Shown in pieces: positions 23,307 through 64,000 of a stretch of 64,000 bases of DNA; the stretch's first letter is position 1; the number at the start of each line of letters is the position of its first letter. This DNA comes from Heligmosomoides polygyrus polygyrus. Taxonomy: Eukaryota > Nematoda > Chromadorea > Rhabditida > Heligmosomidae. A program made the translations under genes and the position numbers. A model generated the notes under the pieces. The model saw nothing but the letters and a program-made list of their open reading frames with translations, searched no databases and was not told the DNA's origin. The stretch covers positions 21,700,001 to 21,764,000 of the forward strand of contig OX377202.1 of assembly GCA_947396885.1 (NCBI GenBank), given 5' to 3'.

Positions 23307-23318
23307 CACATATCCACA

Positions 23319-24654: not shown

Positions 24655-24661
24655 GACGACA

Positions 24662-24880: not shown

Positions 24881-24900
24881 AGTCCGCTAACATCACGCAG

Positions 24901-27705: not shown

Positions 27706-27766
27706 GCTGTAACAATGAGAGCAGCCGCAATGTTCATGTTTATGTATTCGGCTTACTAAATTCCAG

Positions 27767-31411: not shown

Positions 31412-31835
31412 TGTTAATGGTATTTATTCGACGGCCGGTGGCGGTCTCGCCTAGAATCGTTCCTAGCATAAAAAAGCACTTTAAAGAACATATCAAATGT
31501 GCGATCGATACCTTAATGGATAACTACCACGTGGATTACCTTTAACTTGGGTAATTAAACGTTTATTGTAATAGAAACAATAAAAATATGCACGAAAATA
31601 CACCAGAAATAAATCGGCCGATGATGAGTAAGACGAGCAAAAAGCTCGAAGCACCGTGCGGTGCCGAGCAGGCGACATATATACACGGTCGCAGCCGCCG
31701 TCTCACACATTCCTGCCTTGTCGGTGTCAACATCTAAAGCCTATGGCAAACACAGCAAGTTCTATGAGAAAATGTTTATAGGGCAAGAATTATCCTAGAT
31801 GAGCTTAAGGAATCCTAAAGAGCTACGGGAGTCCA
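31412..31835 (-). mobile_element. Solo LTR with SL1-like motif
   Basis: A 424-bp TG...CA segment flanked by 5-bp CTTTT at 31,407-31,411 and 31,836-31,840. Read on the minus strand it has a TATA-like GTATATATG (31,676-31,684), AATAAA (31,562-31,567) and, directly behind it, a 19/22 match to spliced leader SL1 (31,540-31,561) followed by GTAATCC. The motif lies 128 bp from the U5 end, against 130 bp in the LTR at 49,974. The target repeat is low complexity, so the exact ends are less sure than the motif order. Confidence 0.6.
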
Positions 31836-32745: not shown

Positions 32746-32857
32746 GGTGGCGATGTCCGTTCCTCCACGTGGTGCCACTGGAAACTGTTCGCTATGCGAG
32801 CTAAGCTAAGCACGGACACTCGATTGCAGGCGACAGGCCCTTGTGACAGGCCGGCCT

Positions 32858-33943: not shown

Positions 33944-35856
33944 CGAAGCCTGGACGGCGTAAGATTGAGAAGCAGACTTGGCTGTGGACTGACGACGTCA
34001 AGGAAAAAGTCAAAGAGAAGAAGAGACTATATCACGCTTTTCTCAGCGACAAGACAGCCGACAATTGGCGTATGTACCAAGAAGCGAAGAGGGCGGCTAA
34101 GAAGGCTGTTGCCGTTGCAAAAGCTTCTCATTACGAGTATGTCAACGAGAAACTCGAGACGCGCGATGGTGAACGACAACTTTATCGGCTTGCCAAAGCA
34201 CGCCATCGCCAGAGCGAGGACATCGAAAAGTTCTTTGGCATCAACGATGAGAATGGCCATCTGCTGATGAACCGCAAAAGGGCTATGGAACGATGGCATG
34301 ACTACTTCGAGAGAATTTCAACAGTAGAGTTTGCCCATCCGCCTATCCCTTGCGTCCCTCCTACGCACGGTCCTGTGCAGAAAATCACTGTGGAGGAGAC
34401 GGAAGCGGCTTTGAAGAAGATGAAGCCAGGCAAAGCAACGGGCCCTGACGACATAGCGGCCGAACTATGGAACTCGGGGTGCTGGAATCCTGCTGAATGG
34501 CTAACGAAGTTTTTCAACCAGGTTGTTGCGGAGAAGAAGGTTCCTGGTAGTAGGCAGCAAAGCACGACGATCCCGATCTGGAAGAAGAAGGGCAGTCCCG
34601 CGGACTGCACAAGTTACCGTCCAATCCGATTGCTCTCGCACAGTATGAAAATATTTGAGCGAATTGTGGATGGACGTATTCGCGAGATCGTCCGGCTTTC
34701 CACCAACCAGTGTGGCTTCGTAGCCGGCTGTGGCACCATCGACGCCATTCATGCTGTTCGTCTTCTTGTGGAAAGACATCGCGAGAAACAAAAACCGCTG
34801 CATCTTGCTTTCCTCGACCTGGAGAAAGCATTTGATCGTGTACCGCGTGAGGTCATATGGTATGCCTTACGACAGCACGGTGTCCCTGAAGAACTGATCG
34901 AGTGGGTGCGCATTCTTTACTCTTGTCCTAAGAGTCAAGTGCGAGCGCCGGCCGGCACATCCACGGAGTTTCCAATCTCCGTCGGTGTTCACCAAGGTTC
35001 CGCGCTTTCCCCACTTCTTTTCATTGTCGTAATGGATGCCATTTCGCGAGACCTTCAGAAGCCTGCTCCTTTGACGCTGCTCTATGCAGATGACGTAATG
35101 CTTGCGAGTGAAGACAAGGCCGAACTTGAGCGACAAGTGCAAGCTTGGTGTGACCGCTTGGCGGCGTTCGGGCTCAAGCTAAACGTCCAAAAATCTGAGT
35201 ACTTGACGACAGACGTAAACGAGACTGGGTCCATTGAGATCAATGGCACTGCGCTCGTACGAGCGACACATTTCAAGTACCTTGGATCTGCAATTGCGTC
35301 TGATGGTAGTCTGACGTGCGAGGTGAACTCACGCGTGAGCGCAGCGTGGTCCAAATGGCGCTCAATGACAGGCGTTCTGTGCGACAGAAAGATACCGGAG
35401 CGCTTAAAATCAAAGATCTACAGAACCGTCGTCCGACCAGTAGCGATGTACGGTGCTGAGTGCTGGCCTGCAACGAAGGAAGTTGAGAGCCGCCTCAGCG
35501 TGATGGAGACGAAAATGCTGCGCTGGACGGCTGGTGTCACGCGTTTGGATCATGTTCGCAATGTCTCCGTACGCCAAAGGTTTGGCGTCGCTCCAATTGC
35601 TGACAAGCTACGTGAAGCTCGCCTACGGTGGTATGGCCATGTTCTTCGTGCGGACGGCGACACCGTTCGGAAGATTGGCCTCAACATAGATGTGCCCGGA
35701 AAACGGCCTAAAGGACGACCTAGGCAACGCTGGCTTGATACGTTGCACGTGGACTTAAAGGAAGCTGGTATCCACCCCGATCAAGCGTTTGATCGTGCGA
35801 AGTGGCGTCATCATACCAGAAGAGCGGACCCCGCTGCTAAGCGGGACAAACGCTGA
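33898..35856 (+). CDS. LINE reverse transcriptase
   Basis: 652 codons in frame -1 relative to the endonuclease, ending at TGA 35,854-35,856. Motifs by residue: MKPGKATGPDDIAAELW (~175-191), TIPIWKKKG and YRPIRLLS (~224-247), catalytic motif A FLDLEKAFDRVP (~305-316), motif B GVHQGSALSPLLF (~363-375), catalytic YADDVM (396-401) and a C-terminal LRWYGHVLR...GRPRQRW segment usual for this family. All catalytic residues are present and no internal stop is seen, so the domain could be active. The first codons before TKPGRRKIEKQTW are probably an artefact of the frame break; the true start is upstream in the endonuclease frame. Confidence 0.95.
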   Translation: METCNRFDTRSELGMTKPGRRKIEKQTWLWTDDVKEKVKEKKRLYHAFLSDKTADNWRMYQEAKRAAKKAVAVAKASHYEYVNEKLETRDGERQLYRLAKARHRQSEDIEKFFGINDENGHLLMNRKRAMERWHDYFERISTVEFAHPPIPCVPPTHGPVQKITVEETEAALKKMKPGKATGPDDIAAELWNSGCWNPAEWLTKFFNQVVAEKKVPGSRQQSTTIPIWKKKGSPADCTSYRPIRLLSHSMKIFERIVDGRIREIVRLSTNQCGFVAGCGTIDAIHAVRLLVERHREKQKPLHLAFLDLEKAFDRVPREVIWYALRQHGVPEELIEWVRILYSCPKSQVRAPAGTSTEFPISVGVHQGSALSPLLFIVVMDAISRDLQKPAPLTLLYADDVMLASEDKAELERQVQAWCDRLAAFGLKLNVQKSEYLTTDVNETGSIEINGTALVRATHFKYLGSAIASDGSLTCEVNSRVSAAWSKWRSMTGVLCDRKIPERLKSKIYRTVVRPVAMYGAECWPATKEVESRLSVMETKMLRWTAGVTRLDHVRNVSVRQRFGVAPIADKLREARLRWYGHVLRADGDTVRKIGLNIDVPGKRPKGRPRQRWLDTLHVDLKEAGIHPDQAFDRAKWRHHTRRADPAAKRDKR

Positions 35857-44249: not shown

Positions 44250-44753
44250 CAACCACACGCTAAATTTCGGATTCTGATATCCGAATCTTTAGTCTCGCAA
44301 AACATAAAATATTCATGACCATCATAGTTTATTCCCATTACTATTTCCACAACTTTCCAGTATTCATGCAAACATTTTAAACTTCGAAGTAAATGCAGCA
44401 TCAGCATTTGGGTGCCTTATGGGTTCCAAAAACAACGCAAAACTTTCTAGTAGTAGAAGTCAGCAATGACAAGTGTCTATAAGTTACTTAATGTAATTCA
44501 GTTTGATGCTATGAAGAGAATCACGAATTATGTACATAGAGATGCCTCACTACATCGCTTGATAAGCAGCGCTATAATGGGATTTCGGCAGTATTTTCAC
44601 CGTTAGACCGCTGTAAGTCGTTGATGAGGCTAGCCTAGGAACTGTATTTTACTGGCTAACGTTTAGGTGACTGACAGCAAGTTAGGGCTTAATATAGTTG
44701 TAAGAACCAGCTGGCATAGTAGTAAATTTAATTCAAACCCTGAGTTCGTTCAT
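44249..44753. other. Left flank of satellite array B
   Basis: Nothing recognised up to the abrupt start of satellite sequence at GCTCTGTCT (44,754). Confidence 0.4.
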
Positions 44754-47225
44754 GCTCTGTCTAAAAGCGCGCTGTTCAAATGATAAAGATGCACGTTATC
44801 TTTATCATTTGAGCGTAAGCAACCCCTTCTGACGACCCCTTACATACCTTCATTCTCACGTCCTTCGCCATCATAAGCGGGCGGGTGATATTTTGGACAT
44901 TCCAAGTACAGGGTGAGCATGTCTTTCACTGAAAGAGGTCAGAAGCACAGCAGCGAAAGCAATATTATTAAGAAGAGTATATCCGGCTTGCTCTTTGGCA
45001 TCACCACATTTTCAGAGCCGGGAAAAATCAACAAGTGTTGGGGAAATTGGTCGCACAAAAACCATTTCAAGTAAAAGGCGGTAGTAAATAGATGATAACG
45101 GAAGGTAGACCAACTTCATCTAACCTTATGAGTTAAGTTAGTCATCCTCATGTAGAGGCAGCAGGGGGAGGGGGGGGGTTAGAGTACTTCACACTCTTTG
45201 CAACAACGACGCCAAAATTGAAAGTGTACTGCTTTACAAAGACGAAACCTGAAGAGACTTAAAGAACATCGTTTTGCATTGATTAGCTGGGATGATCACC
45301 ACGCTTGTGTGTGTTTCACCTTTGTAGCGATGTTCCCCCTACTAGGATAGATCCCAGGACCAGTTTGCGTATAGCGCGCCGAGCATTGTAACAGGATTCT
45401 AGCACCCATCGTAGTTTGGTCTGTCTAAAAGCGCGCTGTTCAAATGATAAAGATGCACGTTATCTTTATCATTTGAGCGTAAGCAACCCCTTCTGAAGTA
45501 CATTCCTTCATTCTCACGTCCTTCGCCATCATAAGCGGGCGGGTGATATTTTGGACATTCCAACTACAGGCTGAGCATGTCTTTCACTGAAAGAGGTCAA
45601 AAGCACAGCAACGAAAGAAATATTATTAAGAAGAGTATATCCGGCTTGCTCTTTGGCATCACCACATTTTCAGAGCCGGGAAAAATCAACAAGTGTTGGG
45701 GAAATTGGTCGCACAAAAACCATTTCAAGTAAAAGGCGGTAGTAAATAGATGATAACGGAAGGTAGACCAACTTCATCTAACCTTATGAGTTAAGTTAGT
45801 CATCCTCATGTAGAGGCAGCAGGGGGAGGGGGGGGGTTAGAGTACTTCACACTCTTTGCAACAACGACGCCAAAATTGAAAGTGTACTGCTTTACAAAGA
45901 CGAAACCTGAAGAGACTTAAAGAACATCGTTTTGTATTGATTAGCTGGGATGATCACCACGCTTGTGTGTGTTTCACCTTTGTAGCGATGTTCCCCCTAC
46001 TACGATAGATCCCAGGACCAGTTTGCGTATAGCGCGCCGAGAATTGTAACGGGATTCTAGCACCCATCGTAGTTTGCTCTGTCTGAAAGCGCGCTGTTCA
46101 AATGATAAAGATGCACGTTATCTTTATCATTTGAGCGTTTGCAACCCCTTCTGAAGTACATCCCTTCATTCTCACGTCCTTCGCCATCATAAGCGGGCGG
46201 GTGATATTTCGGACATTCCAACCACAGGGTGAGCACGTCTTTTACTGAAAGAGGTCAGAAGCACAGCAATGAAAGCATGATTATTAAGAAGAGTATATCC
46301 GGCTTGCTTTTTGGCATCACCTCATTTTCAGAGCCGGGAAAAATCAACAAGTGTTGGAGAAATTGGTCGCACAAAAACCAGTTCAAGTAAAAGGCGGTAG
46401 TAAATAGATGATAACGGAAGGTAGACCAACTTCATCTATCCTTATGAGTTAAGTTATTTATCCTCATGTAGAGGCAGCAGGGGAAGGAGGGAAGGTTAGA
46501 GTACTTCACAGTCTTTGCAACAACGACGGCAAAATTGAAGGTGTACTGTTTTGCAAAAGCGAAACCTGAAGAGACCTAAAGAACATCGTTTTGTATTGAT
46601 TAGCTGGGATGATCACCACGCTTGTGTGTGTTTCACCTTTGTAGCGATGTTTCCCCTACTACGATAGATCCCAGGACCAGTTTGCGTATAGCGCGCCGAG
46701 CATTGTAACAGGATTCTAGCACCCATCGTAGTTTGGTCTGTCTAAAAGCGCGCTGTTGAAATGATAAAGATGCACGTTATCTTTATCATTTGAGCGTAAG
46801 CAACCCCTTCTGAAGTACATTCCTTCATTCTCACGTCCTTCGCCATCATAAGCGGGCGGGTGATATTTCGGACATTCCAACCACAGGGTGAGCACGTCTT
46901 TTACTGAAAGAGGTCAGAAGCACAGCAATGAAAGCATGATTATTAAGAAGAGTATATCCGGCTTGCGGCGCTATGTGACAACGGAGGGGTTAGTAAAATT
47001 CAAAAAAATATATATGCCTAGGTAGACATTTATGTAAGCAATACAAAACCACTTACCATTTAACCGGAATGGTCCTCCATGTTGCTTGGGGGGGGGGGTC
47101 CTCCGAGTGACCTAAGTAACCTAAGCCTGAGGGTTAGAAATTACCTTAAAAATCATGCCCAAATCTGTGATTTCGTTGATGCGGAGGAGAGCACAGAACA
47201 GATATTCCTCTCCTTAAATTTGCTT

Positions 47226-48185: not shown

Positions 48186-49973
48186 GTGCTCTCCTCCGCG
48201 TCAGCGGAGGAGAGCACACAACAGATACTCGGACGACCCCCCCCCCCAAGCAACATAGAGGACCATACCGGTTAAATGGTAAGTGGTTTTGTATTGCTTA
48301 CATAAATGCCTACCTAGGCATATATATTTTGTTGAATTTTGCTAACCCCTCCGTTGTCACATAGCGCCCGGCTTGCTTTTTGGCATCACCTCATTTTCAG
48401 AGCCGGGAAAAATCAACAAGTGTTGGAGAAATTGGTCGCACAAAAACCAGTTCAAGTAAAAGGCGGTAGTAAATAGATGATAACGGAAGGTAGACCAACT
48501 TCATCTATCCTTACGAGTTAAGTTATTTATCCTCATGTAGAGGCAGCAGGGGAAGGAGGGAAGGTTAGAGTACTTCACAGTCTTTGCAACAACGACGGCA
48601 AAATTGAAGGTGTACTGTTTTGCAAAAGCGAAACCTGAAGAGACCTAAAGAACATCGTTTTGTATTGATTAGCTGGGATGATCACCACGCTTGTGTGTGT
48701 TTCACCTTTGTAGCGATGTTCCCCCTACTACGATAGATCCCAGGACCAGTTTGCGTATAGCGCGCCGAGCATTGTAACAGGATTCTAGCACCCATCGTAG
48801 TTTGGTCTGTCTAAAAGCGCGCTGTTCAAATGATAAAGATGCACGTTATCTTTATCATTTGAGCGTAAGCAGCCCCTTCTGAAGTACATTCCTTCATTCT
48901 CACGTCCTTCGCCATCATAAGCGGGCGGGTGATATTTCGGACATTCCAACTACAGGGTGAGCATGTCTTTCACTGAAAGAGGTCAAAAGCACAGCAACGA
49001 AAGAAATATTATTAAGAAGAGTATATCCGGCTTGCTCTTTGGCATCACCTCATTTTCAGAGCCGGGAAAAATCAACAAGTGTTGGAGAAATTGGTCGCAC
49101 AAAGACCAGTTCAAGTAAAAGGCGGTAGTAAATAGATGATAATGGAAGGTAGACCAACTTCATCTATCCTTATGAGTTAAGTTATTCATCCTCATGTAGA
49201 GGCAGCAGGGGAAGGAGGGAAGGTTAGAGTACTTCACAGTCTTTGCAACAACGACGGCAAAATTGAAGGTGTACTGTTTTGCAAAGGCGAAACCTGAATA
49301 GACCTAAAGAACATCGTTTTGTATTGATTAGCTGGAATGGATCACCACGCTTGTGTGTGTTTCACCTTTGTAGCGATGTTCCCCCTACTACGATAGATCC
49401 CAGGACCAGTTTGCGTATAGCGCGCCGAGAATTGTAACAGGATTCTAGCACCCATCGTAGTTTGCTCTGTCTGAAAGCGCGCTGTTCAAATGATAAAGAT
49501 GCACGTTATCTTTATCATTTGAGCGTAAGCAGCCCCTTCTGAAGTACATTCCTTCATTCTCACGTCCTTCGCCTTCATAAGCGGGCGGGTGATATTTCGG
49601 ACATTCCAACTACAGGGTGAGCATGTCTTTCACTGAAAGAGGTCAAAAGCACAGCAACGAAAGAAATATTATTAAGAAGAGTATATCCGGCTTGCTCTTT
49701 GGCATCACCACATTTTCAGAGCCGGGAAAAATCAACAAGTGTTGGGGAAATTGGTCGCACAAAGACCAAGTCGCGTAAAAGGCTGTAGTAAATAGATGAT
49801 AACGGAAGGTAGACCAACTTCATCTAACCTTATGAGTTAAGTTAGTCATCCTCATGTAGAGGCAGCAGGGGGAGGGGGGGGGTTAGAGTACTTCACAGTC
49901 TTTGCAACAACGACGGCAAAATTGAAGGTGTACTGTTTTGCAAAGGCGAAACCTGAAGAGACCTAAAGAACAT

Positions 49974-50439
49974 TGAAGCGAGCCAATCCTTCCGAATTTG
50001 CTCTCCAAAACTGCTGCCACGCGGGACGATGTCTCGACTAGGCTCGCTACTTCTCGAACACGACACAACCACGAAATTCGACCACGATACGACACGCAGG
50101 AACCTCAAACTTGGGTAATTAAACCACTTTATTAAAGACAAATAACACTAATCAACGAGAAATCGGGTTTCGCTGCAAAACGACTGAAATCGTGGAGGCG
50201 ACAAGCATGCAAGTGAAACGTCGTCGGCGGCGTAGAATGCCCTCTCGTTGTTTAGGCGGAGCTCTTATACAGAAGCACGCGGCTTCTGATGCGGAGCGCG
50301 ATAAGCCTATGTTTCTTGAGCGCGGCTCGCACATGAGCACATCGATAACATTTCAAATTCTTGAGCTACAGTACGACAGAAAATATGCTAAACAACACTT
50401 TTACATTAAAAAATAGGATCACTTGTCGCTTTTGCGACA
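49974..50439 (-). mobile_element. Solo LTR containing exact SL1, copy 1
   Basis: 466 bp, TG...CA, with the 5-bp duplication AACAT at 49,969-49,973 and 50,440-50,444; intact monomers have a single AACAT there (AAAGAACATCG). These are the hallmarks of an LTR retrotransposon insertion reduced to one LTR. On the minus strand the order is TATAAGAG (50,262-50,269), AATAAA (50,128-50,133), then at 50,104-50,125 a 22/22 match to nematode SL1, followed by GTTCC. No gag or pol is present. The orientation rests on the TATA-AATAAA order. Sequence after the leader does not resemble SL RNA. Confidence 0.9.
50104..50125 (-). promoter_or_regulatory. SL1 spliced-leader sequence inside the LTR
   Basis: All 22 positions match the nematode SL1 leader (GGTTTAATTACC through AAGTTTGAG). 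It starts 2 nt behind AATAAA and is followed by GT, the dinucleotide that follows SL1 in SL RNA. A second exact copy is at 51,895-51,916; a 19/22 version is at 31,540-31,561. Confidence 0.95.
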
Positions 50440-50810
50440 AACATCGTTTTGTATTGATTAGCTGGGATGATCACCAAGCTTGTGTGTGTTTCACCTTTGT
50501 AGCGATGTTCCCCCTACTACGATAGATCCCAGGACCAGTTTGCGTATAGCGCGCCGAGAATTGTAACAGGATTCTAGCACCCATCGTAGTTTGGTCTGTC
50601 TAAAAGCGTGCTGTTCAGATGATAAAGATGCACGTTATCTTTATCATTTGAGCGTAAGCAGCCCCTTCTGAAGTACATTCCTTCATTCTCACGTCCTTCG
50701 CCATCATAAGCGGGCGGGTGATATTTCGGACATTCCAACCACAGGGTGAGCATGTCTTTCACTGAAAGAGGTCAAAAGCACAGCAACGAAAGAAATATTA
50801 TTAAGAAGAG

Positions 50811-52601
50811 TATATCCGGCTTGCTCTTTGGCATCACCACATTTTCAGAGCCGGGAAAAATCAACAAGTGTTGGGGAAATCGGTCGCACAAAAACCATTT
50901 CAAGTAAAAGGCGGTAGTAAATAGATGATAACGGAAGGTAGACCAACTTCATCTATCCTTATGAGTTAAGTTATTCATCCTCATGTAGAGGCAGCAGGGG
51001 AAGGAGGCAAGGTTAGAGTACTTCACAGTCTTTGCAACAACGACGGCAAAATTGAAGGTGTACTGTTTTGCAAAGGCGAAACCTGAATAGACCTAAAGAA
51101 CATCGTTTTGTATTGATTAGCTGGAATGGATCACCACGCTTGTGTGTGTTTCACCTTTGTAGCGATGTTCCCCCTACTACGATAGATCCCAGGACCAGTT
51201 TGCGTATAGCGCGCCGAGAATTGTAACAGGATTCTAGCACCCATCGTAGTTTGCTCTGTCTGAAAGCGCGCTGTTCAAATGATAAAGATGCACGTTATCT
51301 TTATCATTTGAGCGTAAGCAGCCCCTTCTGAAGTACATTCCTTCATTCTCACGTCCTTCGCCATCATAAGCGGGCGGGTGATATTTCCGACATTCCAACT
51401 ACAGGGTGAGCATGTCTTTCACTGAAAGAGGTCAAAAGCACAGCAACGAAAGAAATATTATTAAGAAGAGTATATCCGGCTTGCTCTTTGGCATCACCAC
51501 ATTTTCAGAGCCGGGAAAAATCAACAAGTGTTGGGGAAATTGGTCGCACAAAGACCAAGTCGCGTAAAAGGCTGTAGTAAATAGATGATAACGGAAGGTA
51601 GACCAACTTCATCTAACCTTATGAGTTAAGTTAGTCATCCTCATGTAGAGGCAGCAGGGGGAGGGGGGGGGGGTTAGAGTACTTCACAGTCTTTGCAACA
51701 ACGACGGCAAAATTGAAGGTGTACTGTTTTGCAAAGGCGAAACCTGAAGAGACCTAAAGAACATTGAAGCGAGCCAATCCTTCCGAATTTGCTCTCCAAA
51801 ACTGCTGCCACGCGGGACGATGTCTCGACTAGGCTCGCTACTTCTCGAACACGACACAACCACGAAATTCGACCACGATACGACACGCAGGAACCTCAAA
51901 CTTGGGTAATTAAACCACTTTATTAAAGACAAATAACACTAATCAACGAGAAATCGGGTTTCGCTGCAAAACGACTGAAATCGTGGAGGCGACAAGCATG
52001 CAAGTGAAACGTCGTCGGCGGCGTAGAATGCCCTCTCGTTGTTTAGGCGGAGCTCTTATACAGAAGCACGCGGCTTCTGATGCGGAGCGCGATAAGCCTA
52101 TGTTTCTTGAGCGCGGCTCGCAGATGAGCACATCGATAACATTTCAAATTCTTGAGCTACAGTACGACAGAAAATATGCTAAACAACACTTTTACATTAA
52201 AAAATAGGATCACTTGTCGCTTTTGCGACAAACATCGTTTTGTATTGATTAGCTGGGATGATCACCAAGCTTGTGTGTGTTTCACCTTTGTAGCGATGTT
52301 CCCCCTACTACGATAGATCCCAGGACCAGTTTGCGTATAGCGCGCCGAGAATTGTAACAGGATTCTAGCACCCATCGTAGTTTGGTCTGTCTAAAAGCGT
52401 GCTGTTCAGATGATAAAGATGCACGTTATCTTTATCATTTGAGCGTAAGCAGCCCCTTCTGAAGTACATTCCTTCATTCTCACGTCCTTCGCCATCATAA
52501 GCGGGCGGGTGATATTTCGGACATTCCAACCACAGGGTGAGCATGTCTTTCACTGAAAGAGGTCAAAAGCACAGCAACGAAAGAAATATTATTAAGAAGA
52601 G
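50811..52601. repeat. Array-B HOR with LTR, unit 2 (1,791 bp)
   Basis: Second copy of the LTR-bearing dimer. It shares private satellite variants with unit 1, such as AAGCGTGCTGTTCAGATG at 50,604 and 52,395 and ACCAAGTCGCGT at 49,767 and 51,556. Confidence 0.8.
51765..52230 (-). mobile_element. Solo LTR containing exact SL1, copy 2
   Basis: 466 bp, essentially identical to 49,974-50,439, with the same AACAT flanks (51,760-51,764 and 52,231-52,235) at the same monomer position. The shared site and shared surrounding variants show that it arose by satellite amplification, not by a second insertion. SL1 lies at 51,895-51,916. Confidence 0.92.
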
Positions 52602-52789
52602 TATATCCGGCTTGCTTTTTGGCATCACCACGTTTTCAGAGCCGGGAAAAATCAACAAGTGTTGAAGAAATTGGTCGCACAAAGACCAAGTCGCGTTAAA
52701 GGCTGTAGTAAATAGATGATGAGTGAAGGTAGACCAACTTCACCTATCCTTATGAGTTAAGTTAGTCATCCTCATGTAGAGGCAGCAGG

Positions 52790-55700
52790 GGGAGGGGGGG
52801 GGGGGTTAGAGTACTTCACACTCTTTGCAACAACGACGCCAAAATTGAAAGTGTACTGCTTTACAAAGACGAAACCTGAAGAGACTTAAAGAACATCGTT
52901 TTGTATTGATTAGCTGGGATGATCACCACGCTTGTGTGTGTTTCACCTTTGTAGCGATGTTCCCCCTACTACGATAGATCCCAGGACCAGTTTGCGTATA
53001 GCGCGCCGAGAATTGTAACGGGATCCTAGCACCCATCGTAGTTTGGTCTGTCTAAAAGCGCGCTGTTCAAATGATAAAGATGCACGTTATCTTTATCATT
53101 TGAGCGTGTGCAACCCCTTCTGAAGTACATCCCTTCATTCTCTCGTCCTTCGCCATCATAAGCGGGCGGGTGATATTTCGGATATTCCAGCCACAGGGTG
53201 AGCACGTCTTTTACTGAAAGAGGTCAGAAGCACAGCAATGAAAACATGATTATTAAGAAGAGTACATCCGGCTTGCTTTTTGGCATCACCTCATTTTCAG
53301 AGCCGGGAAAAATCAACAAGTGTTGGAGAAATTGGTCGCACAAAAACCAGTTCAAGTAAAAGGCGGTAGCAAATAGATGATAACGGAAGGTAAACCAACT
53401 TCATCTATCCTTATGAGTTAAGTTAGTCATCCTCATGTAGAGGCAGCAGGGGGAGGGGGGGGGGTTAGAGTACTTCACAGTCTTTGCAACAACGACGGCA
53501 AAATTGAAGGTGTACTGTTTTACAAAGCCGAACCCTGAAGAGACCTTAAGAACATCGTTTTGTATTGATTAGCTGGGATGGATCTCCACGCTTGTGTGTG
53601 TTTCACCTTTGTAGCGGTGTTCCCCCTACTACGATAGATCCCAGGACCAATATGCGTATAGCGCGCTGAGCAATGTAACAGGATTGGAGCACCCTTCGTA
53701 GTTTGCTCTGTCTGAAAGCGCGTTGTTCAAATGATAAAGATGCACGTTATCTTTATCATTTGAGCGTATGCAACCCCTTCTGAAGTGGGAAGGTTAGAGT
53801 ACTTCACAGTCTTTGCAACAACGACGGCAAAATTGAAAGTGTACTGTTTTGCAAAGACGATACCTGAAGAGACCTAAAGAACATCGTTTTGTATTGATTA
53901 GCTGGGATGATCACCACGGTTGTGTGTGTTTCACCTTTGTAGCGATGTTTCCCCTACTACGATAGATCCCAGGACCAGTTTGCATATAGCGCGCCGAGCA
54001 TTGTAACAGGATTCTAGCACCCATCGTAGTTTGCTCTGTCTGAAAGCGCGCTGTTCAGATGATAAAGATGCACGTTACCTTTATCATTTGAGCGTAGCAA
54101 CCCCTTCTGAAGTACATCCCTTCATTCTCACATCCTTCGCCATCATAAGCGGGCGGGTGATATTTCGGACATTCCAACTACAGGGTGAGTATGTCTTTCA
54201 CTGAAAGAGGTCAGAAGCACAACAACGAAAACAAGATTGTTAAGATCAGTATATCCGGCTTGCTTTTTGGCATCACCACCTTTTCAGAGCAGGGAAAGTC
54301 ACTAAGTGTTGAAGAAATTGGTCGCACAAAAACCAGTTCAAGTAAAAGGCGGTAGCAAATAGATGATAACGGAAGGTAAACCAACTTCATCTATCCTTAT
54401 GAGTTAAGTTAGTCATCCTCATGTAGAGGCAGCAGGGGGAGGGGGGGGGGTTAGAGTACTTCACACTCTTTGCAACAACGACGCCAAAATTGAAAGTGTA
54501 CTGCTTTACAAAGACGAAACCTGAAGAGACTTAAAGAACATCGTTTTGTATTGATTAGCTGGGATGATCACCACGCTTGTGTGTGTTTCACCTTTGTAGC
54601 GATGTTCCCCCTACTACGATAGATCCCAGGACCAGTTTGCGTATAGCGCGCCGAGAATTGTAACGGGATCCTAGCACCCATCGTAGTTTGGTCTGTCTAA
54701 AAGCGCGCTGTTCAAATGATAAAGATGCACGTTATCTTTATCATTTGAGCGTGTGCAACCCCTTCTGAAGTACATCCCTTCATTCTCTCGTCCTTCGCCA
54801 TCATAAGCGGGCGGGTGATATTTCGGATATTCCAGCCACAGGGTGAGCACGTCTTTTACTGAAAGAGGTCAGAAGCACAGCAATGAAAACATGATTATTA
54901 AGAAGAGTACATCCGGCTTGCTTTTTGGCATCACCTCATTTTCAGAGCCGGGAAAAATCAACAAGTGTTGGAGAAATTGGTCGCACAAAAACCAGTTCAA
55001 GTAAAAGGCGGTAGCAAATAGATGATAACGGAAGGTAAACCAACTTCATCTATCCTTATGAGTTAAGTTAGTCATCCTCATGTAGAGGCAGCAGGGGGAG
55101 GGGGGGGGTTAGAGTACTTCACAGTCTTTGCAACAACGACGGCAAAATTGAAGGTGTACTGTTTTACAAAGCCGAACCCTGAAGAGACCTTAAGAACATC
55201 GTTTTGTATTGATTAGCTGGGATGGATCTCCACGCTTGTGTGTGTTTCACCTTTGTAGCGGTGTTCCCCCTACTACGATAGATCCCAGGACCAATATGCG
55301 TATAGCGCGCTGAGCAATGTAACAGGATTGGAGCACCCTTCGTAGTTTGCTCTGTCTGAAAGCGCGTTGTTCAAATGATAAAGATGCACGTTATCTTTAT
55401 CATTTGAGCGTATGCAACCCCTTCTGAAGTGGGAAGGTTAGAGTACTTCACAGTCTTTGCAACAACGACGGCAAAATTGAAAGTGTACTGTTTTGCAAAG
55501 ACGATACCTGAAGAGACCTAAAGAACATCGTTTTGTATTGATTAGCTGGGATGATCACCACGGTTGTGTGTGTTTCACCTTTGTAGCGATGTTTCCCCTA
55601 CTACGATAGATCCCAGGACCAGTTTGCATATAGCGCGCCGAGCATTGTAACAGGATTCTAGCACCCATCGTAGTTTGCTCTGTCTGAAAGCGCGCTGTTC

Positions 55701-56000
55701 AGATGATAAAGATGCACGTTACCTTTATCATTTGAGCGTAGCAACCCCTTCTGAAGTACATCCCTTCATTCTCACATCCTTCGCCATCATAAGCGGGCGG
55801 GTGATATTTCGGACATTCCAACTACAGGGTGAGTATGTCTTTCACTGAAAGAGGTCAGAAGCACAACAACGAAAACAAGATTGTTAAGATCAGTATATCC
55901 GGCTTGCTTTTTGGCTTCACCACCTTTTCAGAGCAGGGAAAGTCACTAAGTGTTGAAGAAATTGGTCGCACAAAAACCATTTCAAGTAAAAGACGGTAAT
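52790..56000. repeat. Array-B 1.65-kb HOR, two units, with a half-monomer deletion
   Basis: Blocks offset by about 1,645 bp (53,161/54,806) equal 2.5 monomers. In each unit one monomer lacks about 330 bp: CCCCTTCTGAAG is joined directly to TGGGAAGGTTAGAGTAC (53,776-53,803 and again near 55,420-55,447). The deletion arose once and was then amplified. Confidence 0.8.
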
Positions 56001-56418
56001 AAATAGCTGAGAAGGGAAGGCAGACTAACTTCTTCTAACCTTATGAGTTAAGTTTGTCATCCTCATGTAGAGGCAAGCGGGGGGGGAGGAGAGAGAGAGT
56101 ACTTTGCAATCTTTATATCAATGACGGTAAAATTGAAGGTGAACTATTGTACAAAGTCGAAATATAGAGAGACCTACGAAAAAACCTTTTCGTTTGGTTA
56201 GCTGTTATGGGGCACCACGTTTGCGCGTGTTTTACGCTTCTAGCCAATCTCCCCCCACTAGTATAGAGAAACCAATATTCGTACTTCCCGCTGAGCAATG
56301 CAACAGGATTGGTGCACCCTTTGCAGTTTGCTCTGTCCAAAAGCGCGCAATTCAAATAATAGAAATCCACGCTACATTTATCATTTATAATATAACGTAA
56401 GCAACCCCTTTTAAAGTA

Positions 56419-57678
56419 TTAGGTTGTATCGAATTAAATGGCACTGAACCACTTGTAAATTTAAACAGTTAATATCTTGGCTTGTAGGCAAGTTTATTAA
56501 TCGAAATAGTAACCCTCTGGTTCTACACATCTTTTCCAATGTGACTCAATCTTTTTTATCCCAGTAGCATAAAAATCAGATGTTCTGGAATTGACGAAAT
56601 CCTCGAAGGTACTTTCGGCATCCTGTTGGTATTTGAATATTGTCCCTACCAAGAAGTCGGCAAGATGCTTGAAGAAATGGTAGCCTGTTGGGGAGAGGTC
56701 GGGAAAAAAACGGAGGACGTGGTAGAGTTTCAGTGCTCAGCTCATTCAATTTCTGCAACGTCATTCGTGCTTCATGGGGGCGAGCATTGTCCTGCAGAAG
56801 GAGAACTCGCCTTCGGTTTACCAAGGCCGGCCGGATATCCTTCAACTTTTTCATCATTTCTTCAATTTCAATGCAGTGCTTCTCTGCCGTGATGGATTCA
56901 CCGGGAGGGAGGAAGCTGTGGTGAATAATTCCCAGCGAACACCACCATAGTGTCACCATTACTTTCTTTTGGTGCAATTCCGGCTTCGCAAAAACATTGG
57001 GGCTCTCATCGCTGTCCACCCACTGTGCCGATCGTCGCCTGTTATCGTACACCATCCATTTCTCGTCACAGGTTACGATGCGATCAAGGAATGGTCCCTT
57101 TCGTTCCGTAGAAGCAGTGCGGACGAGATCTCATATCATCTGTTTCTTTGCTCCTCAGACAGCTCGCGAGGCACCCACCTCTCCAGCTTTTTGGTCTTTC
57201 CAATTTCCTTTAGATGCCGGGCAGCTGTGTTGTGACTGACGCCAAGAACCTTCGCTATCTCCCCCTACCACATCTCTCAGCTTGTCCTCATCAACATCAC
57301 TATGCCTCCCACGACCTTCATGTTCTTCCAAGCTCTCATCTCCATTCCGGAACTTCTGATACCAGCGATACGCCGTCCAAATTGTGGAACATCCTTGACC
57401 GAATGCGGCGTTGATTTTCTCGTCCGCCTACTTAGCTGTAGTGCCCAGCTTGAATTCATACAAATAAATGCCTCGGATTACCCTTTTGTCCATCTGCAAA
57501 AAAGTCAATAAAACTCCAAAGTTTTCCCACTTTTACATAGAAAATTTGGTGCACTCCGGTAGAACAAAGTTTGCGCTTCTAAATGATATGCCACATGTTA
57601 CGGTTTGTTCTTGATCAAACGCGTAAATACGCGCCAAAAATGGCGCGAGCCAGTGCCATTTAATTCGTTACAACCTAA
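56419..57678 (-). mobile_element. mariner transposon, copy 2 (decayed)
   Basis: 1,260 bp with TA at 56,417-56,418 and 57,679-57,680. The terminal inverted repeats are better preserved than in copy 1: TTAGGTTGTA(T/A)CGAATTAA continuing to GGCACTG, one mismatch in 28. The satellite junctions are the same as in copy 1. Confidence 0.95.
56497..57493 (-). pseudogene. mariner transposase pseudogene, copy 2
   Basis: Same transposase as copy 1, with a different set of lesions. The first catalytic aspartate is kept (TCDEKW, against TCGEKW in copy 1), as are LLLQDNARPH and the C-terminal EPEGYYFD with its TAA. A nonsense change in the N-terminal helix-turn-helix (GAG to TAG in AKEADE, near 57,427) and at least one frameshift shared with copy 1 inactivate it. 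Private lesions in each copy date part of the decay to after the duplication. Confidence 0.92.
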
Positions 57679-57785
57679 TACATCCCCTTATTCTCACATC
57701 CTTCGCCGTCAAGGCGGGTGATATTTCGGACACGCCAACTACAGGGTGAGCATGTCTTTTCCTGAAAGGGGGCAAAAGCTCAGCT
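57679..57785. repeat. Satellite remnant to the right of mariner copy 2
   Basis: Matches 22,184-22,290 and ends at the same CAGCTAAGGG junction. Confidence 0.85.
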
Positions 57786-58496
57786 AAGGGAGTTCAGGGT
57801 AAGACAAAATGTTTGGCTTTCTTTGACGTAGTCACCTCCAACTCCACTATTTCACTGGAATCCCTCTAACCAGCATACGCCGCAGTTAATTCCGCCAAAC
57901 GATCGAATGTGCATCTGGATTTAGAAGACGTGCCACAGATGGGACTTTGATCAGCATCCTTGAGACTTTCAGATGACTTTTTAAAGGCTTCGTGCAACAG
58001 CGAGTGTGGGCGTACCTGATTCTCACTTTCGTTCTTTGCCGGCACATGGGTAAGAGGGTATTGGTGGAGTGGGTGGGGTGAGGGTAGGGAGAATGAGTAA
58101 GTGTAATGTTAATGTAGAGTGTAATCGGAGTAATGTTATTCCCGTCGGCTGTGAACCGTATCGAGCAATCTACCAATATCAATTGATTTCGTTTGTGTTT
58201 CCCCAGAATAAGCACTTCGGATTAAGACTCTCTATCTGTTGCTCGCCATGCATAAAACGAGTACTTCAGAGAATAAATCGCGTACGTCATACAAAGGGTG
58301 GGTAGACCCCATAGGTGTAGCTTCAAGACTTAAAGAGGACAAGAAGACGGTAGGGGTGTTTTGTTCTCCGGGTTTGGGGCAAAGCCCCCAACCAGACGTT
58401 TGGCGGCCAGCAGGCGGATGAACTCTGGTATAAACATAATGCCTCTTTTCGTAAGTGAACTATACTTACGTACTTGTGTGGAGTTCCGTATCTCGG
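57786..58496. other. Unassigned stretch, copy 2
   Basis: Contains the quadruplex-capable tract GGGTGGGGTGAGGGTAGGG at 58,071-58,089. Otherwise nothing recognised; equivalent to 22,291-23,002. Confidence 0.45.
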
Positions 58497-58508
58497 CACA
58501 TATCCACA

Positions 58509-58800
58509 AAGGATAAGGATAAAGGACGGCGTTACTCAATCCCTTCTGGGATGCGCCAGCGCACTCTACTTCTACAGGATGTTGTGGAGGCGATATGAAT
58601 GCGTATTTGGCCATACTATGACTTGCGGTGGCCAGCCGATGAACAAGTCAGCGCTCTATCCTTCCCAGACGAGTCTGGTAGCAATTCACCGACCCCAGAG
58701 GGATGGAAGGCTTGGTTGGCCTGGGCGGGAAATCCGAACCAGGAACCTGGTATCGGGTGCACGCGACAGTCGCGCCTCCTCTGACTGCGCAACACGCGCC
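58509..58800 (-). mobile_element. tRNA-derived SINE, copy 2
   Basis: 292 bp between CACATATCCACA at 58,497-58,508 and 58,801-58,812. The tRNA-like head and simple-repeat tail are as in copy 1, with few substitutions. Confidence 0.75.
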
Positions 58801-58812
58801 CACATATCCACA

Positions 58813-60148
58813 TAAGGTGCACCAATTAGGCTTTGTAAAGCAATATTCCGACACCACCTGCTTCTTCTTTTATCAAAATCGTAATCTAAAAATTGACTGG
58901 ATAGTTTTGAAAAATTGTTCATTCGAATACAAAAAGTTGAAAATATGAAAAACTAAAAATTCCATTAACTTGGCACGAAGTTCCCACCGTTGTGATGAAA
59001 TGGGACTTCGGTGAGTTCTCCTAATACGATATCGTGGTTTTGAGCATTTCATTAAAACGTTTTACTATTTCTTGTGAGCCACCCTTTTCGCACCTGAATA
59101 TCATTTCTAAAGTCTTCTTTGGTCCTTATGTGCTCCGTAAATAGACTGCATAAAGGCGTTCATACCAGTTCTGCAGCGAACATCTTATTGTCCGCAATTA
59201 TCAGTATCGCCACGCGATGATGATATTGCTCCTCATTGCTGAGCGATTTGCTCATCGCTCGGTGATTGGCTACTATGCCATCGTTTCGAACGCATGGTGC
59301 AAGCACCAACACTCTTGCAGAAAAGCGCGACGATCGCGTTGCACCGATAGTGGGCTTCGCGTCGCCACGCGAACGCTCTGAATGCCCCATCACACGAGCA
59401 GTGAAATAACCGGTTGTGGACCGCTCACCGGACCTTCGTCCTAAAATAGCCCCTACAAGTCACCTGTTAAGTAAAAAACGTCATTTTCACCTGCAGGTGA
59501 ACTCTTCCAGTGTCTGAGGGGGCCTAGACCAAAGGAAGGAGGCAATCCAGACGGGTGTGAACTCGTTCCAAACGTGTAAAATGCCGGCCGCGTCACCACG
59601 TACCTGTGTTTGAGCACTGACAGGCTGCCCCGTCTTCCTTGCATTGCATCGCTAGAGGGCGGTAAGCGGTTGATAAATCTGGCCCTGGTTTGCGCACTTC
59701 TTTGATAAAAAGGACCGCACAATCTCGCTAGTGTTATTTGTGCATGCATCCCAAAATCAGTCCACAGTTGGCCCCTAGTTAGACACCGTGGGGCTAAGCG
59801 GCTTGGAGGGAGGGGGTCACCGTGAAAGGCAGCTCTATACGTTCTGTATTGCACGAAATTAAAAATTTCTGTGATGATTGAGCTAGGCCATTTCTGCTGT
59901 AATTCAACATTGATGTGCGCTCTTTCCAAGGCGGAACCACATAGTACAAGGTGACGCCTTGCGCCGACACCGCACTCTCCTCTCGTAAGTGCCTAATGGA
60001 AATGTGGCATTGGCCACAAGAGTTAGTGTAGAGCTTTGTTCGTTTTGTTTTGTTCCTTTTCCCGAACTGAGGAGTCCCAGATTTTGTATTCAATTTAAGT
60101 GACCACCTTTAATCGGTAATCACTTTTGACAAGACCATAACAACAGCC
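58813..60148. other. Unassigned intergenic stretch, copy 2
   Basis: Equivalent to 23,319-24,647, with a 7-bp insertion near 58,978 and few substitutions. Overlapping minus-strand frames stay open as in copy 1 but have no recognisable domain. Confidence 0.4.
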
Positions 60149-60162
60149 TTTTCAGGACGACA

Positions 60163-60381
60163 ATGTCGATCAAAATTGCATCGCTCGTCCTTCTTCTTTG
60201 CGTAGCTGCTGCATCAGCTGAGCCGGTTTGCTGTTTAAAAACTTCAATTAAAACATTGGAAACATTACGTGTTAGGGAAATACAAGTGCTCCGACACGCC
60301 TATCTGGGTGTTTCGTACTTGCACGCCACGCGCGATCTTAGAACGTCACTCGCTACGGAAACAAATTTTTATAGAACATAA
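60163..60381 (+). CDS. Candidate secreted peptide, first exon (copy 2)
   Basis: Identical over 72 codons to the frame at 24,662, with the same TTTTCAG acceptor (60,149-60,155) and the same signal peptide. No difference in about 220 bp contrasts with the exon at 63,311. The same caveat applies: the coding part may end after the signal peptide at a GTTTGC donor near 60,226. Confidence 0.5.
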   Translation: MSIKIASLVLLLCVAAASAEPVCCLKTSIKTLETLRVREIQVLRHAYLGVSYLHATRDLRTSLATETNFYRT

Positions 60382-60401
60382 AGTCCGCTAACATCACGCA
60401 G

Positions 60402-60719
60402 GAGATCCGCCTTCTGAATTCGGACTCTCAGAAACGCGTGCAGTTGCCAGTGTCAAGCAGAAGGAGGCTGAGCTTCCTCTGCTGCAGAGTTCCTCCTACT
60501 GACCCCCATCCTGATTCCCCTCCATGTCCGTCCTTCCTGCTCGCTTTCGGTCCCCCACCTTCAAAGTCACCTTACTCCTCTTACCCCTTTAGTGGTCCTC
60601 CCATCGGCACAAAGTCGGCGACTTTGCTTCTGAATCTGGACGCTCAGAAACGGGCGCATTATCCGTTGTGTCAAGCAGTAAAAGGTTGGGCTTCCCCTGC
60701 TGGCAACATCCCACGTTGA
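60402..60719 (+). CDS. Possible second exon, copy 2
   Basis: Identical counterpart of 24,901-25,218, with both LLN-D-QKR segments retained in frame. Identity between copies gives no independent evidence for coding. Confidence 0.3.
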   Translation, partial: EIRLLNSDSQKRVQLPVSSRRRLSFLCCRVPPTDPHPDSPPCPSFLLAFGPPPSKSPYSSYPFSGPPIGTKSATLLLNLDAQKRAHYPLCQAVKGWASPAGNIPR

Positions 60720-62927
60720 ATAGAGAATTTTGCCAGAGCGGTGGATGACGGGGCGTATCTCGCGTAGGTTAGAATACTCAAACGTCATCGACCGCTAACA
60801 CTTCAATATTTAGGTGGTAGTTTCAATTTTTTAATCTTAAAGTAGAGGTGGACCACGGTGTAGAAGATACAACACGCTGCGCATCGAATAAATTCACGCA
60901 TAGGAGAGAGTGCACCCTAAGCCGCATAGCGCGAATTTTCTTATATAAGAAGCATGTGAAAAGCTAGAAGTTGTGTGAATGGCTAAATCACATTTATTTG
61001 TGTTATGAGATTGATTAACGCATAACTTTTTCTTAACAGAATTTTCAATCAATCAAATGAAAACTGCGATGTACAAGAAGGTATATTGGTACGATTTGTT
61101 TATGCGACAAAAAGTTGCCGCTTTTATGCGTTTAAAACATCATTAGAATCACCTTTGTAACTCGACAGATACAAATTTGCAAAAATTCCAACATTGTGTT
61201 CACTTTTTTACGACAGGCGAATAATAATTTTTCAAAGAAAGTCAGGGCAAGTTTCTTAAATCGAACTTTTTCTTAACTTCTGTGGAGCTTTAGTTGAATT
61301 TGGAAGCCGCCTTTTGAATTTGAGAAGGTTTATTCTGATTTCAGAGGTAACCAAGATTACGTAAAAGAGGTGCAAATCTTGGATCACCGAAAAAGTCTCG
61401 ACTGAATTTTTTATGGAATAGTAAATAGTTTTCTAGCACTACAAACGTAATCAAACTACATGGTTGCCCGGATTCGGCTAAGAGTCAAAAAGTTGGAAGA
61501 CCCCGGCTTACAGTTCCGACCGTTCATTGAATTTCTTTTCGCGAATATAATGCCTTTGGGAGCTGGTAGTCAGAAAAACTCAGAAAGATAAGCAGCATGT
61601 GGAAGGACATTCCACCAGTTCGGCAATCTTCTAGAGGCTCCGCTTGTCGAACTGTGGAGGGCGTTGTTGTGAAGTAGGCAGACTGTATGGCTCTCCGGAT
61701 GCTTCAGTCGAACAGCGTCGGCCGACTCCCGAAGTTGAGCAGCGCACACCTAGACTACCACTGTGGTAGCAGCAGGTGGGGTACCAAAGCAGAACAGTGT
61801 GCAGGAGTCCTACCAACAACACTAGGATCTTCTTCTCCTGGGGCCGTATGCTCGCGTCCCTCGACGTCCTCGGGTTTCACTCGAATTACTCAGTTCATGT
61901 AACGAACCACTCGAATGAATTTCATAAAGTTCAACATGGTGATGGTAGAATATTTGACGATGGTCTCCCACTTTCACCGGTATAGCCCACCAGCTGTAGA
62001 GCTGGAGTTGATGTTCTCCTTGGACGAAAGGAATATGACAACGGTAGTGGTTGGTGGTCCATGGTCTTGAAAGAACTCGAAGTTGAACAATTGCGGTCAT
62101 TACTGCTTTATAGTGGTAGGCCCGCAATTGTAGGCTCTAGGACACGCTTCTACCACAAGTAAGACTTTTCTCAACATGTTTTATTGAAAACTGCATATAA
62201 CGAGGAAAAAACGGCCAACGTTTTTCTTCAACTCAACTCACTACTCGATATAACTCTACTGTTGACTAAGCAGTCCTTGACTGGTATTGTATGAGTTGTG
62301 GGTTTACTATTCCTGTTTTAATGTTAGAAAGTTTTACCATCACGGTACGCACAGTTGCCTGGCAACATTCTAGCTATGACGGTGTTTCAAATGCACAGGA
62401 CTGCCATCATTAATCAATCAACAATAGAAGCCGGTTTGCTTCCGAAAAATTTGAGGTAATTTTCAACAAAAGAAGGAATCGTCCTTGTAGGATCCTCCAA
62501 CAATCATCACCATCAAAGATTGATCCTCCAGCTATCATCCACTTTCTGTTCGCTTTATAAACGAGTCAAGTTCTCTCCTTCTACCTTTTTCACTGAAGAT
62601 GCTACTAAATAACCAGTGTGTGGACGTCGCAATAAGGGCATATTGCGCCGGCAGCCCCCACTGTTCAGAAAAGCATCATTTAAGAAGCGACAAGATCGCA
62701 TCAGTTAAGAGAGGTAAAACGTGTGTGCCTCTCAGTAGAATTCATACCGTAGGACATAAAGAGGTGTATTATAGGTAGCATTCCATGTTAGGTCGCAAAA
62801 TCTACTTCCTCCCTGAAGCCATGGGTACAAAAACATGCGCTTCTTCTAGCGGGATCAATCTCCAGAAGACTTTAAGATGTTTTCGTTAGAATGTAGCTTT
62901 GCTTAAATTACGAAAAAGAATATATAG
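60720..62927. other. Unassigned noncoding stretch, copy 2
   Basis: Nearly identical to 25,219-27,426. Nothing recognised. Confidence 0.4.
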
Positions 62928-63250
62928 TATATATATATATACCTTTCAGTTAAAATTCAACGTTTTTCAAATAAAGTTCGAAGTTTTCAAAACGAATTCA
63001 ACGTTTTTCAAATCAAAATCTACGTTTTTCAGAACAAATTCAACGTTCTTCTGGAATCTTCCCTGTATAGCAGCATTGAATTTGCTTTAAAAAACGTTTA
63101 ATTTGATTAGAAGAACGTTGAATTCGTTTTGAACAATGTTGAATACAACGGTTTTCAAATCAGCTTCAACCTTTTTATACGGAGAAGATTACAGAAGAAT
63201 ATTGAAATAGATTTGAAAGCCTTGAATTTTAACTGAAAATGGTATATATA
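62928..63250. mobile_element. MITE-like inverted-repeat element, copy 2
   Basis: As 27,427-27,705, but with an extra ~48-bp block near 63,003-63,050 made of another AACGTTTTTCAAATC / ACGTTTTTCAGAAC unit. Either copy 1 lost this unit or copy 2 gained it. Confidence 0.6.
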
Positions 63251-63310
63251 CTATAAGAATGAGAGCAGCCGCAATGTCCATGTTTATGTATTCGGCTTAC
63301 TAAATTCCAG

Positions 63311-63475
63311 GATCATCAAGGTGTTCAAGATCGACCTGCACCCTCCGGATTGGCTGAAAAGCTGCAGCGTGACAGAATAAGCGTCAAAAAGAATAGCTTG
63401 ATCTGTTGGATCTATCCTTCTGCCTGTTATACGCCTGAACAGATAGAACAAGGACATGGAAATCCAGCGGTGGAG
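63311..63475 (+). CDS. Predicted internal exon, 55 codons (copy 2)
   Basis: Same acceptor (AAATTCCAG), donor (GTAAGC at 63,476), length and phase as 27,767-27,931. Against copy 1 there are 14 differences in 165 nt: eight changed codons scattered through the exon plus the last three codons (WND in copy 1, AVE in copy 2). Two codons change silently and nine change the residue. The core ICWIYPSACYTPEQI and both ends are conserved. Family unknown. Confidence 0.45.
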
Positions 63476-64000
63476 GTAAGCTTTTGATGAAGTCATTTTT
63501 GCTGCAAATGGAAAGCAGCACGGTTTGAAAAGTTGCGTTAGAACCACTGGTGCCATTCAGCCATAATACCGCGTTCTACTGGGACACTTTGTCTACAGAG
63601 GCACTTCAGTTGTTCCTAGAGTGAATGGTTTAAGGCATTAGTCGCGCCAAAAAATGCTGGGTAGGCCAGAACAATGCATCAGAGCTAGAATTTCCACCCC
63701 CTCATCTACGCTCCAGCTCGCTTCCTTCCTGAGAGCAAAGTACTGAAGGTTTCTCTGATCTAGACGACAATGACGGGTTATGCAGCCGTCTAATGGCTTG
63801 CGAATTTTACTTTACTGATGGTCAAGGTCCTAGTTCCCCTTCGTAACCTTGGTCTTATTTCCGGGAGGAACTAGATGTGCTTTTTTATCTGGGCGTCCTC
63901 TGTACGGCGCCGCAATCATGCTCGTCGTGGGCATTAATTCAACGTTCCGCGCATCTTCAGTGAGTCTGCCATTAATTTGTTTGTTCGTCCACGGGGTTGC
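63476..64000. other. Right end of window, duplicated flank
   Basis: Equivalent to 27,932-28,458, with scattered substitutions. No gene recognised; the duplication continues past the window. Confidence 0.4.

Follow-up and report, generated by a model that had tools for sequence, protein, structure and literature searches.

Positions 49974 to 50439 of the window (the whole stretch of 64,000 nucleotides analysed here, C13:21700001-21764000) are occupied by a solo LTR of a BEL/Pao retrotransposon, which carries the complete 22-nt spliced leader SL1 of its host two nucleotides behind an AATAAA poly(A) signal. The leader is identical to that of the genome's own SL1 RNA genes. We consider the chances about even that SL1 occupies the start of the R region in this LTR, such that SL1 added by trans-splicing would serve as the terminal redundancy of the element RNA. 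All genome-wide searches cover the 656-Mb assembly.

Anatomy and genomic site of the solo LTR

Coordinates are collected in Table 1.

Table 1. Features of the window, together with the SL1 RNA gene array on contig C13.
Feature	Position	Strand	Basis or remark
Solo LTR, 466 bp, BEL/Pao	49974-50439	-	TG...CA ends, 5-bp target-site duplication (TSD), empty sites, 45 genome match rows, LTR pairs of relatives flanking a Pao coding piece
TSD, left (AACAT)	49969-49973	.	sequence
TSD, right (AACAT)	50440-50444	.	sequence
TATAAGAG, taken as core promoter	50262-50269	-	LTR 171-178; opens the second most conserved block, LTR 171-196
AATAAA poly(A) signal	50128-50133	-	at LTR 307, 2 nt ahead of SL1
Exact 22-nt SL1 leader, proposed start of R	50104-50125	-	LTR 315-336, 22/22
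Second copy of the 466-bp solo LTR, via satellite duplication	51765-52230	-	1 difference in 466, identical flanks
Exact SL1 of the second LTR copy	51895-51916	-	
Satellite of 659-bp period holding the insertion, with ~1.79-kb higher-order repeat containing the LTR	48368-56418	.	
Copy of another dispersed LTR-type family, resembling a solo LTR; uncertain boundaries	31412-31835	-	67 match pieces, some paired 7-10 kb apart
SL1-like segment	31540-31561	-	19/22, directly behind AATAAA (31562-31567)
SL1 RNA gene array	C13:83.95-84.01 Mb		~1117-bp spacing; leader, AATTTTGG Sm-type site, array arrangement

On the minus strand, the LTR presents TATAAGAG, AATAAA, two nucleotides, the exact SL1 and GTTCC in this order. 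Its ends read TGTCGC...CTTCA on the sense strand and belong to the TG...CA type, and the duplicated target site is ATGTT in this orientation. By eye, a perfect 6-bp hairpin opens the LTR (TGTCGC-AAAA-GCGACA, 50424-50439, minus strand).

The host site is one unit of a satellite of approximately 659 bp. A BLAST search with the joined LTR flanks gave 49 matches, 45 of which cross the join, and 44 of these 45 contain a single, uninterrupted AACAT; the lone outlier, at position 56125, is 75% identical. Thus, the segment is an insertion and hence a solo LTR. The first-pass annotation, made from the sequence alone, had described a TG...CA element with 5-bp duplications, holding AATAAA, 2 nt, an exact SL1 and GT in one orientation. 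The ends, the duplication and the empty satellite sites confirm the element, and the whole series was found in the window copy. Its claim that a chance match is very unlikely holds as well: according to an order-3 Markov estimate, about 1e-9 exact SL1 are expected in the window, and 100 shuffles of the window sequence yielded no match at up to three mismatches. SL2 was not found in the window within six mismatches.

The second LTR copy, overlooked in the first-pass annotation, is ascribed to a duplication of the satellite with a period of 1791 bp because a single base sets it apart and its flanks are identical, and two independent insertions in the window are ruled out on the same grounds. From 48651 to 53555, the LTR-bearing satellite is duplicated at a period of about 1790 bp, and the insertion was amplified along with it. 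Satellite of this unit size also covers 1-20928 and 44746-46966, most units being roughly 90-98% identical to each other. An 8.5-kb duplication of 96.6% identity (19946-28456 and 55436-64000) extends beyond the satellite. Elsewhere in the window, a malate dehydrogenase reading frame or fragment (29501-30163) aligns at 90% identity with a Heligmosomoides polygyrus protein, the alignment covering 79% of the query; two overlapping frames at 32810-35856 look by eye like parts of a non-LTR element, namely endonuclease and reverse transcriptase, and a minus-strand frame at 56576-57130 resembles, again by eye, a mariner-type transposase.

The LTR family and the conservation of SL1

The first-pass annotation had left its reading to be judged by further family copies, full-length elements and the conservation of SL1 against drifting flanks, and had named copies without the leader, a later insertion of the segment or a chimeric assembly as what would speak against it. 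At least 45 places in the genome match the 466-bp LTR (40 of 72 candidates scored), with identities of 69-100% to the window LTR. Our family sample comprises all 38 listed matches besides the two window copies and is spread over six large contigs. SL1 is recognisable in all 38 copies: it is exact in 20, has one mismatch in 11, two in five and three in one, and is broken off after 14 nt in the remaining copy, L030. An exact AATAAA lies 0-5 nt upstream of SL1 in 32 copies. Presence of the leader throughout the sample contradicts a later insertion into one LTR or an assembly chimera just as the low expected number contradicts a chance match; nothing was found in favour of any of the three, which we regard as refuted and of next to no probability.

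Three pairs of LTRs lie about 10.5 kb apart, on contigs C52, C1 and C60. SL1 is exact in both members of one pair (L009/L010), carries one shared change in both members of another (L011/L012), and is exact in one member and changed at one position in the other in the third (L024/L025). All three pairs thereby display the feature of the Brugia type, a Pao element with same-strand SL1 at each end. Directly behind the 5' LTRs, TGGTGCATCGG... forms the primer binding site, which we take to fit tRNA-Gly, and GAAGGCGGAG stands directly ahead of the 3' LTRs. Between the C52 pair, a 3-kb piece consists of a single open frame with matches to Peptidase_A17 (126 bits), Integrase_H2C2 and DUF5641, and an rve match below the cut-off; this coding evidence comes from a full-length relative with LTRs matching the window copy, the window solo LTRs themselves having no coding region. 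Target-site duplications of 5 bp were read by eye for the window copy (ATGTT), L013 (AAGTT), L014 (CTCCT) and L015 (CCTCA). An automatic scan of the 38 copies gave two hits, both with unlikely ends, a low yield explained by the many copies that end in TA instead of CA. The window LTR family is BEL/Pao, with which it shares the A17 peptidase, the integrase, the 5-bp duplication and the tRNA-Gly-like primer binding site.

The two bases that follow SL1 in the 38 copies are GA (16), GT (14), AT (4), GC (3) and AA (1). The first base is G in 33 copies and A in five, a preference for G that resembles the one behind a splice acceptor. These counts bear on the two explanations offered by the first-pass annotation, namely that the element captured a host leader, or that it carries its own leader plus GT donor and so provides downstream acceptors with SL1-like 5' ends. 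The former is supported, SL1 being recognisable in all 38 copies. The latter could draw on the GT that the window copies and 12 of 20 group representatives from other AATAAA-SL1 loci (see below) have behind SL1, but it is left unsupported by the 14 of 38 in the family. Furthermore, sequence resembling the SL RNA intron follows SL1 in only one of 70 loci tested (67 distinct places), the SL RNA pseudogene L116, and Rfam gives no SL1 RNA match at the window LTR. On sequence grounds, a donor role of the bases behind SL1 is excluded for most of the window LTR family, and we judge the leader-plus-donor explanation as very unlikely overall.

The genome's SL1 RNA genes read GTACTTTTAAG...AATTTTGG, which is absent from the LTR. 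They reach Rfam scores of up to 46 bits, under the family cut-off of 75; the array on C13 is taken as real SL1 RNA genes because it combines the leader, the Sm-type site AATTTTGG and the array arrangement. Their feature set of GT donor, intron and Sm site was not found at the window LTR. The 200 nt upstream of an SL1 RNA gene show no BLAST similarity to 70 LTR-type upstream stretches and the intron matches L116 only, which rules out that the LTR captured SL RNA gene sequence.

For the conservation analysis, 35 of 39 sequences (the 38 copies and the window copy) spanned a sufficient part of the LTR for alignment, of which 26 were left after removal of those at least 95% alike. Among 445 segments of 22 nt in these non-redundant copies, SL1 ranks first with 0.931 (mean 0.736, sd 0.105); the other top-scoring segments fall into the TATA block, about 140 nt upstream of SL1. 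Changes private to a single copy occupy 14 of 570 cells in SL1 and 279 of 10,800 in the rest (Fisher p=1.0). Variants common to several copies occur at 2 of 22 sites in SL1 versus 195 of 435 elsewhere (p=6.5e-4) or, without the broken L030, at 2 of 22 versus 192 of 435 (p=7e-4, with 12 of 401 other segments equally low), where all p values serve as a guide only, the copies being related and the sites non-independent. Since single-copy changes mostly arose after insertion and shared ones mostly passed through replication, the pattern indicates that SL1 is maintained through replication of the element and, once inserted, decays at the ordinary rate.

Selection on an encoded SL1 predicts the same pattern as renewal from the host. 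SL1 might be a functional element of the LTR without any trans-splicing, with a host factor that reads its DNA or RNA selecting the exact sequence at the RNA start, either for initiation at SL1, in the manner of SL RNA genes, or for leader-dependent translation. SL RNA transcription in Ascaris, which is said to need the leader as internal promoter element, makes such a function conceivable. However, the missing similarity between the upstream regions of SL1 RNA genes and LTRs argues against it, as does the position of the second conserved block, which is the TATA region rather than one adjoining SL1, and the tight link between SL1 and the poly(A) signal would be left unexplained. We consider an encoded function, in these two forms taken together, unlikely but worth keeping in mind.

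SL1 in further LTR families

To date, 50 AATAAA-SL1 loci (L078-L127) were examined, a non-random set composed of the first 30 listed and 20 picked ones, some for an unusual gap. As L089/L121 and L093/L122 denote the same places, they represent 48 distinct places, which form 21 groups once SL1 is masked, one of them being the SL RNA pseudogene L116. LTR pairs could be aligned in two other families, with LTRs of about 817 bp (SL1 at 714) and 425 bp (SL1 at 330); proof by LTR pairs covers these two of the 21 groups beyond the window family. A match resembling a primer binding site lies downstream in 13 of the 50 loci, one of them doubtful, and a Pao peptidase was found between the LTR pairs of three families, i.e., the window family and these two. 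Several LTRs that resist alignment with each other in all other parts share SL1 beside AATAAA. As a general feature, a TATA box some 120 nt upstream is not borne out: TATAWA occurs at -150 to -95 in two of 20 groups, although this search pattern cannot match the TATAAG present in the window family. Downstream of a Pao integrase piece, L129:2236-2856 gives a weak Phlebovirus_G1 match (20.1 bits, cut-off 25), which hints at an envelope-like gene.

The third SL1-bearing site of the window, likewise overlooked in the first-pass annotation, belongs to another LTR-type family. Most family matches end near position 340 of the stretch 31412-31835, and its 424-bp outline, which rested on a target-site duplication unsupported by these matches, was rejected. 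Ten fetched copies match SL1 at 20-21 of 22 positions, and in each of them AATAAA immediately precedes the leader. All ten, like the window copy, begin SL1 with C, and this position is thus inherited there rather than renewed; otherwise, SL1 is exact in seven copies and has one more change each in L138, L143 and L146. The fixed C would fit reverse transcription that stops one base short of the cap, and it also counts against full renewal. In three of the ten copies, the last six nucleotides of SL1 are repeated (exactly in L137 and L144, with a change in L143). Splicing of SL1 to the CAAG that lies within an encoded SL1 would leave such a repeat and is its possible origin; duplication by slippage is a plain alternative.

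Another reading is a single capture in the past, in which a trans-spliced element RNA was reverse transcribed once and SL1 was passively inherited ever since, as proposed for the PAO elements of Brugia malayi. The fixed non-host base at the third site agrees with it, and so do the SL1 copies beside PAO elements in that species, according to the available part of the report (PMC7181701). Yet a single capture predicts that shared variants are equally frequent in SL1 and elsewhere, contrary to the 2 of 22 and 195 of 435 sites found, and exact or near-exact SL1 recurs in LTRs that cannot otherwise be aligned. A one-off capture is therefore disfavoured and in our estimation improbable.

Exact SL1 occurs 2,235 times in the genome, and AATAAA precedes it by 0-6 nt in 322 matches. 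At 7-27 nt upstream there are 30 matches at 25 sites, ten of which also have a downstream signal when the lists are compared by eye; downstream, 47 matches were counted at 0-6 nt and 77 at 7-27 nt. Reversed-pattern controls gave 0 in each case. The AATAAA density of the window (54 in 128 kb on both strands) corresponds to about one chance match per offset position, i.e., about seven over seven positions and 20 over 21. An upstream AATAAA more than 6 nt away from SL1 is near background, and other families carry the signal just downstream. At most about 480 of the 2,235 exact SL1 lie within 27 nt of AATAAA, the rest including SL RNA genes and other repeats.

On C1 and C13, AATAAA-SL1 sites form 11 same-strand neighbour pairs 2.9-11.5 kb apart; opposite-strand neighbours within 13 kb were not found on these contigs, where the site list appears complete. 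One Pao clade (122 match rows genome-wide) has 43 RT-peptidase hits on C1 and C13. Eleven of them have a same-strand AATAAA-SL1 within 9 kb, seven of these on both sides, and none of the 43 has such a site solely on the opposite strand; with positions displaced by 100-500 kb, the count is 0-2. Two further hits of the clade, C1:8504205 and C13:20159011, sit between SL1-AATAAA pairs with the signal downstream. Against a generality of the arrangement among Pao elements counts that one of 55 high scorers for PF05380 on C1 and C13 has an AATAAA(0-6)SL1 site within 12 kb, in a list that holds the best 150 of 1,480 candidates and none of the elements scoring like the SL1-bearing pieces.

Two other repeat groups contain exact SL1. 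One (L048, L051, L052, L057, L058, L065, L074 and L077, near 1501) begins with it; most copies continue with a segment resembling CTGAAGAAGG...CCGAAACG, some being head to head with a second, inverted SL1. By eye, the segment resembles a hammerhead-type core, but the copies scanned gave no Rfam match at threshold. The second group (L050, L053, L063, L064, L067-L072, L076, also L114 and L117) shows GTAAAC or GTGA after SL1, with TATAAAAG upstream, at about 128 nt in both L114 and L117 but closer in L063. One of its loci is a tandem array of units of about 203 bp, and the group is distinct from the SL RNA gene array. In Rfam searches, none of 12 SL1-bearing loci reached the threshold of any family, and one relaxed scan gave nothing convincing. 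In scans of IMG/VR and prokaryote genomes, exact SL1 was not found.

A possible role of SL1 in the replication cycle

Trans-splicing poses a problem for an LTR element because the loss of the 5' RNA end destroys the repeat that is needed for first-strand transfer. Built on the anatomy of the LTR, its family, the conservation pattern, the spacing rule and the recurrence in other LTR families, the following cycle may be envisaged. Transcription would start upstream of SL1, in the window family probably 25-30 nt after TATAAGAG. The host would splice SL1 onto an AG that either terminates the encoded SL1 or lies within it, giving an RNA that starts with SL1-U5, and cleavage shortly after the adjoining AATAAA would place the 3' end of the RNA within the encoded SL1 or immediately behind it. 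Strong-stop cDNA, with anti-SL1 at its end, could then anneal to the 3' SL1 for first-strand transfer, and the new LTRs would copy SL1 from the host leader, by which it would stay identical to the host sequence. The idea of the first-pass annotation that the placement of AATAAA could make SL1 useful for strand transfer through R is upheld as part of this putative cycle.

The spacing rule fits such an R region: signals before SL1 are tolerated within a few bases only, and signals behind it are free to move. Taken as a whole, the sequence data suggest that the element borrows the host SL1 at every copying cycle. The full form of the proposal, to which we incline only tentatively and at somewhat less than even chances, is that R is the host leader itself, trans-added to every genomic RNA and rewritten in each cycle, so that the very processing that would otherwise remove R becomes the means of strand transfer. 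Its weak step is the presumed acceptor TTTGAG, which poorly matches the nematode splice acceptor TTTTCAG.

In usual BEL/Pao elements, R is encoded by the element and free to drift, unlike the proposed start of R in the window family, which is a host leader. Trans-spliced leaders written back into DNA are known as relict leaders of dinoflagellate genes, which arise from mRNA recycling; there, retroposition is passive, no LTR is involved and the leaders decay. Of 120 non-gene SL1 copies in B. malayi, 60 are located no further than 1 kb from PAO elements, and exact SL1 adjoins Pao elements, at times as two same-strand copies flanking one, as is the case here (Foster et al. 2020, PMC7181701, available text). 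This text reads SL1 as a leader added to expressed RNA and then integrated, unlike our proposal, and gives no LTR-internal position, poly(A) signal or role for it. RNA of the Gypsy/Ty3 element Cer1 of C. elegans can gain SL1 by trans-splicing; it is the spliced 2.4-kb RNA that carries SL1, the 8-kb genomic RNA not being trans-spliced at that site, and the part of the article at hand mentions no SL1 in the LTR (PMC3315495). In Hydra, the host leader was found at the 5' end of about 30% of TE Iso-Seq reads, but a leader copy within an element is not mentioned in the accessible portion (PMC12220107). Solo LTRs likewise meet the trans-splicing system in the Echinococcus TRIM element, where splicing joins one LTR transcript to an acceptor that receives the leader in a sister species; in contrast to our case, the LTR supplies a chance donor, and a leader copy goes unmentioned in the excerpt consulted (PMC4558846).

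Apart from PMC7181701, the titles and abstracts surveyed, with the Ascaris Tas literature outside their scope, contained no link of DNA copies of SL1 to LTR elements. The place of SL1 in the LTR beside the poly(A) signal, its replication-linked conservation and its recurrence in unrelated LTRs are new, and so are the case against a donor role and the model of R. Matches to SL1 in genomic DNA are unsafe as evidence for SL genes or trans-splice sites, and elements of the kind described here may account for the scattered SL1 copies reported in Brugia. If the proposal is true, SL1 at the start of R solves the loss of the 5' end in a host in which most mRNAs are trans-spliced, and the R model predicts an element sequence that evolves in lockstep with a small RNA of its host.
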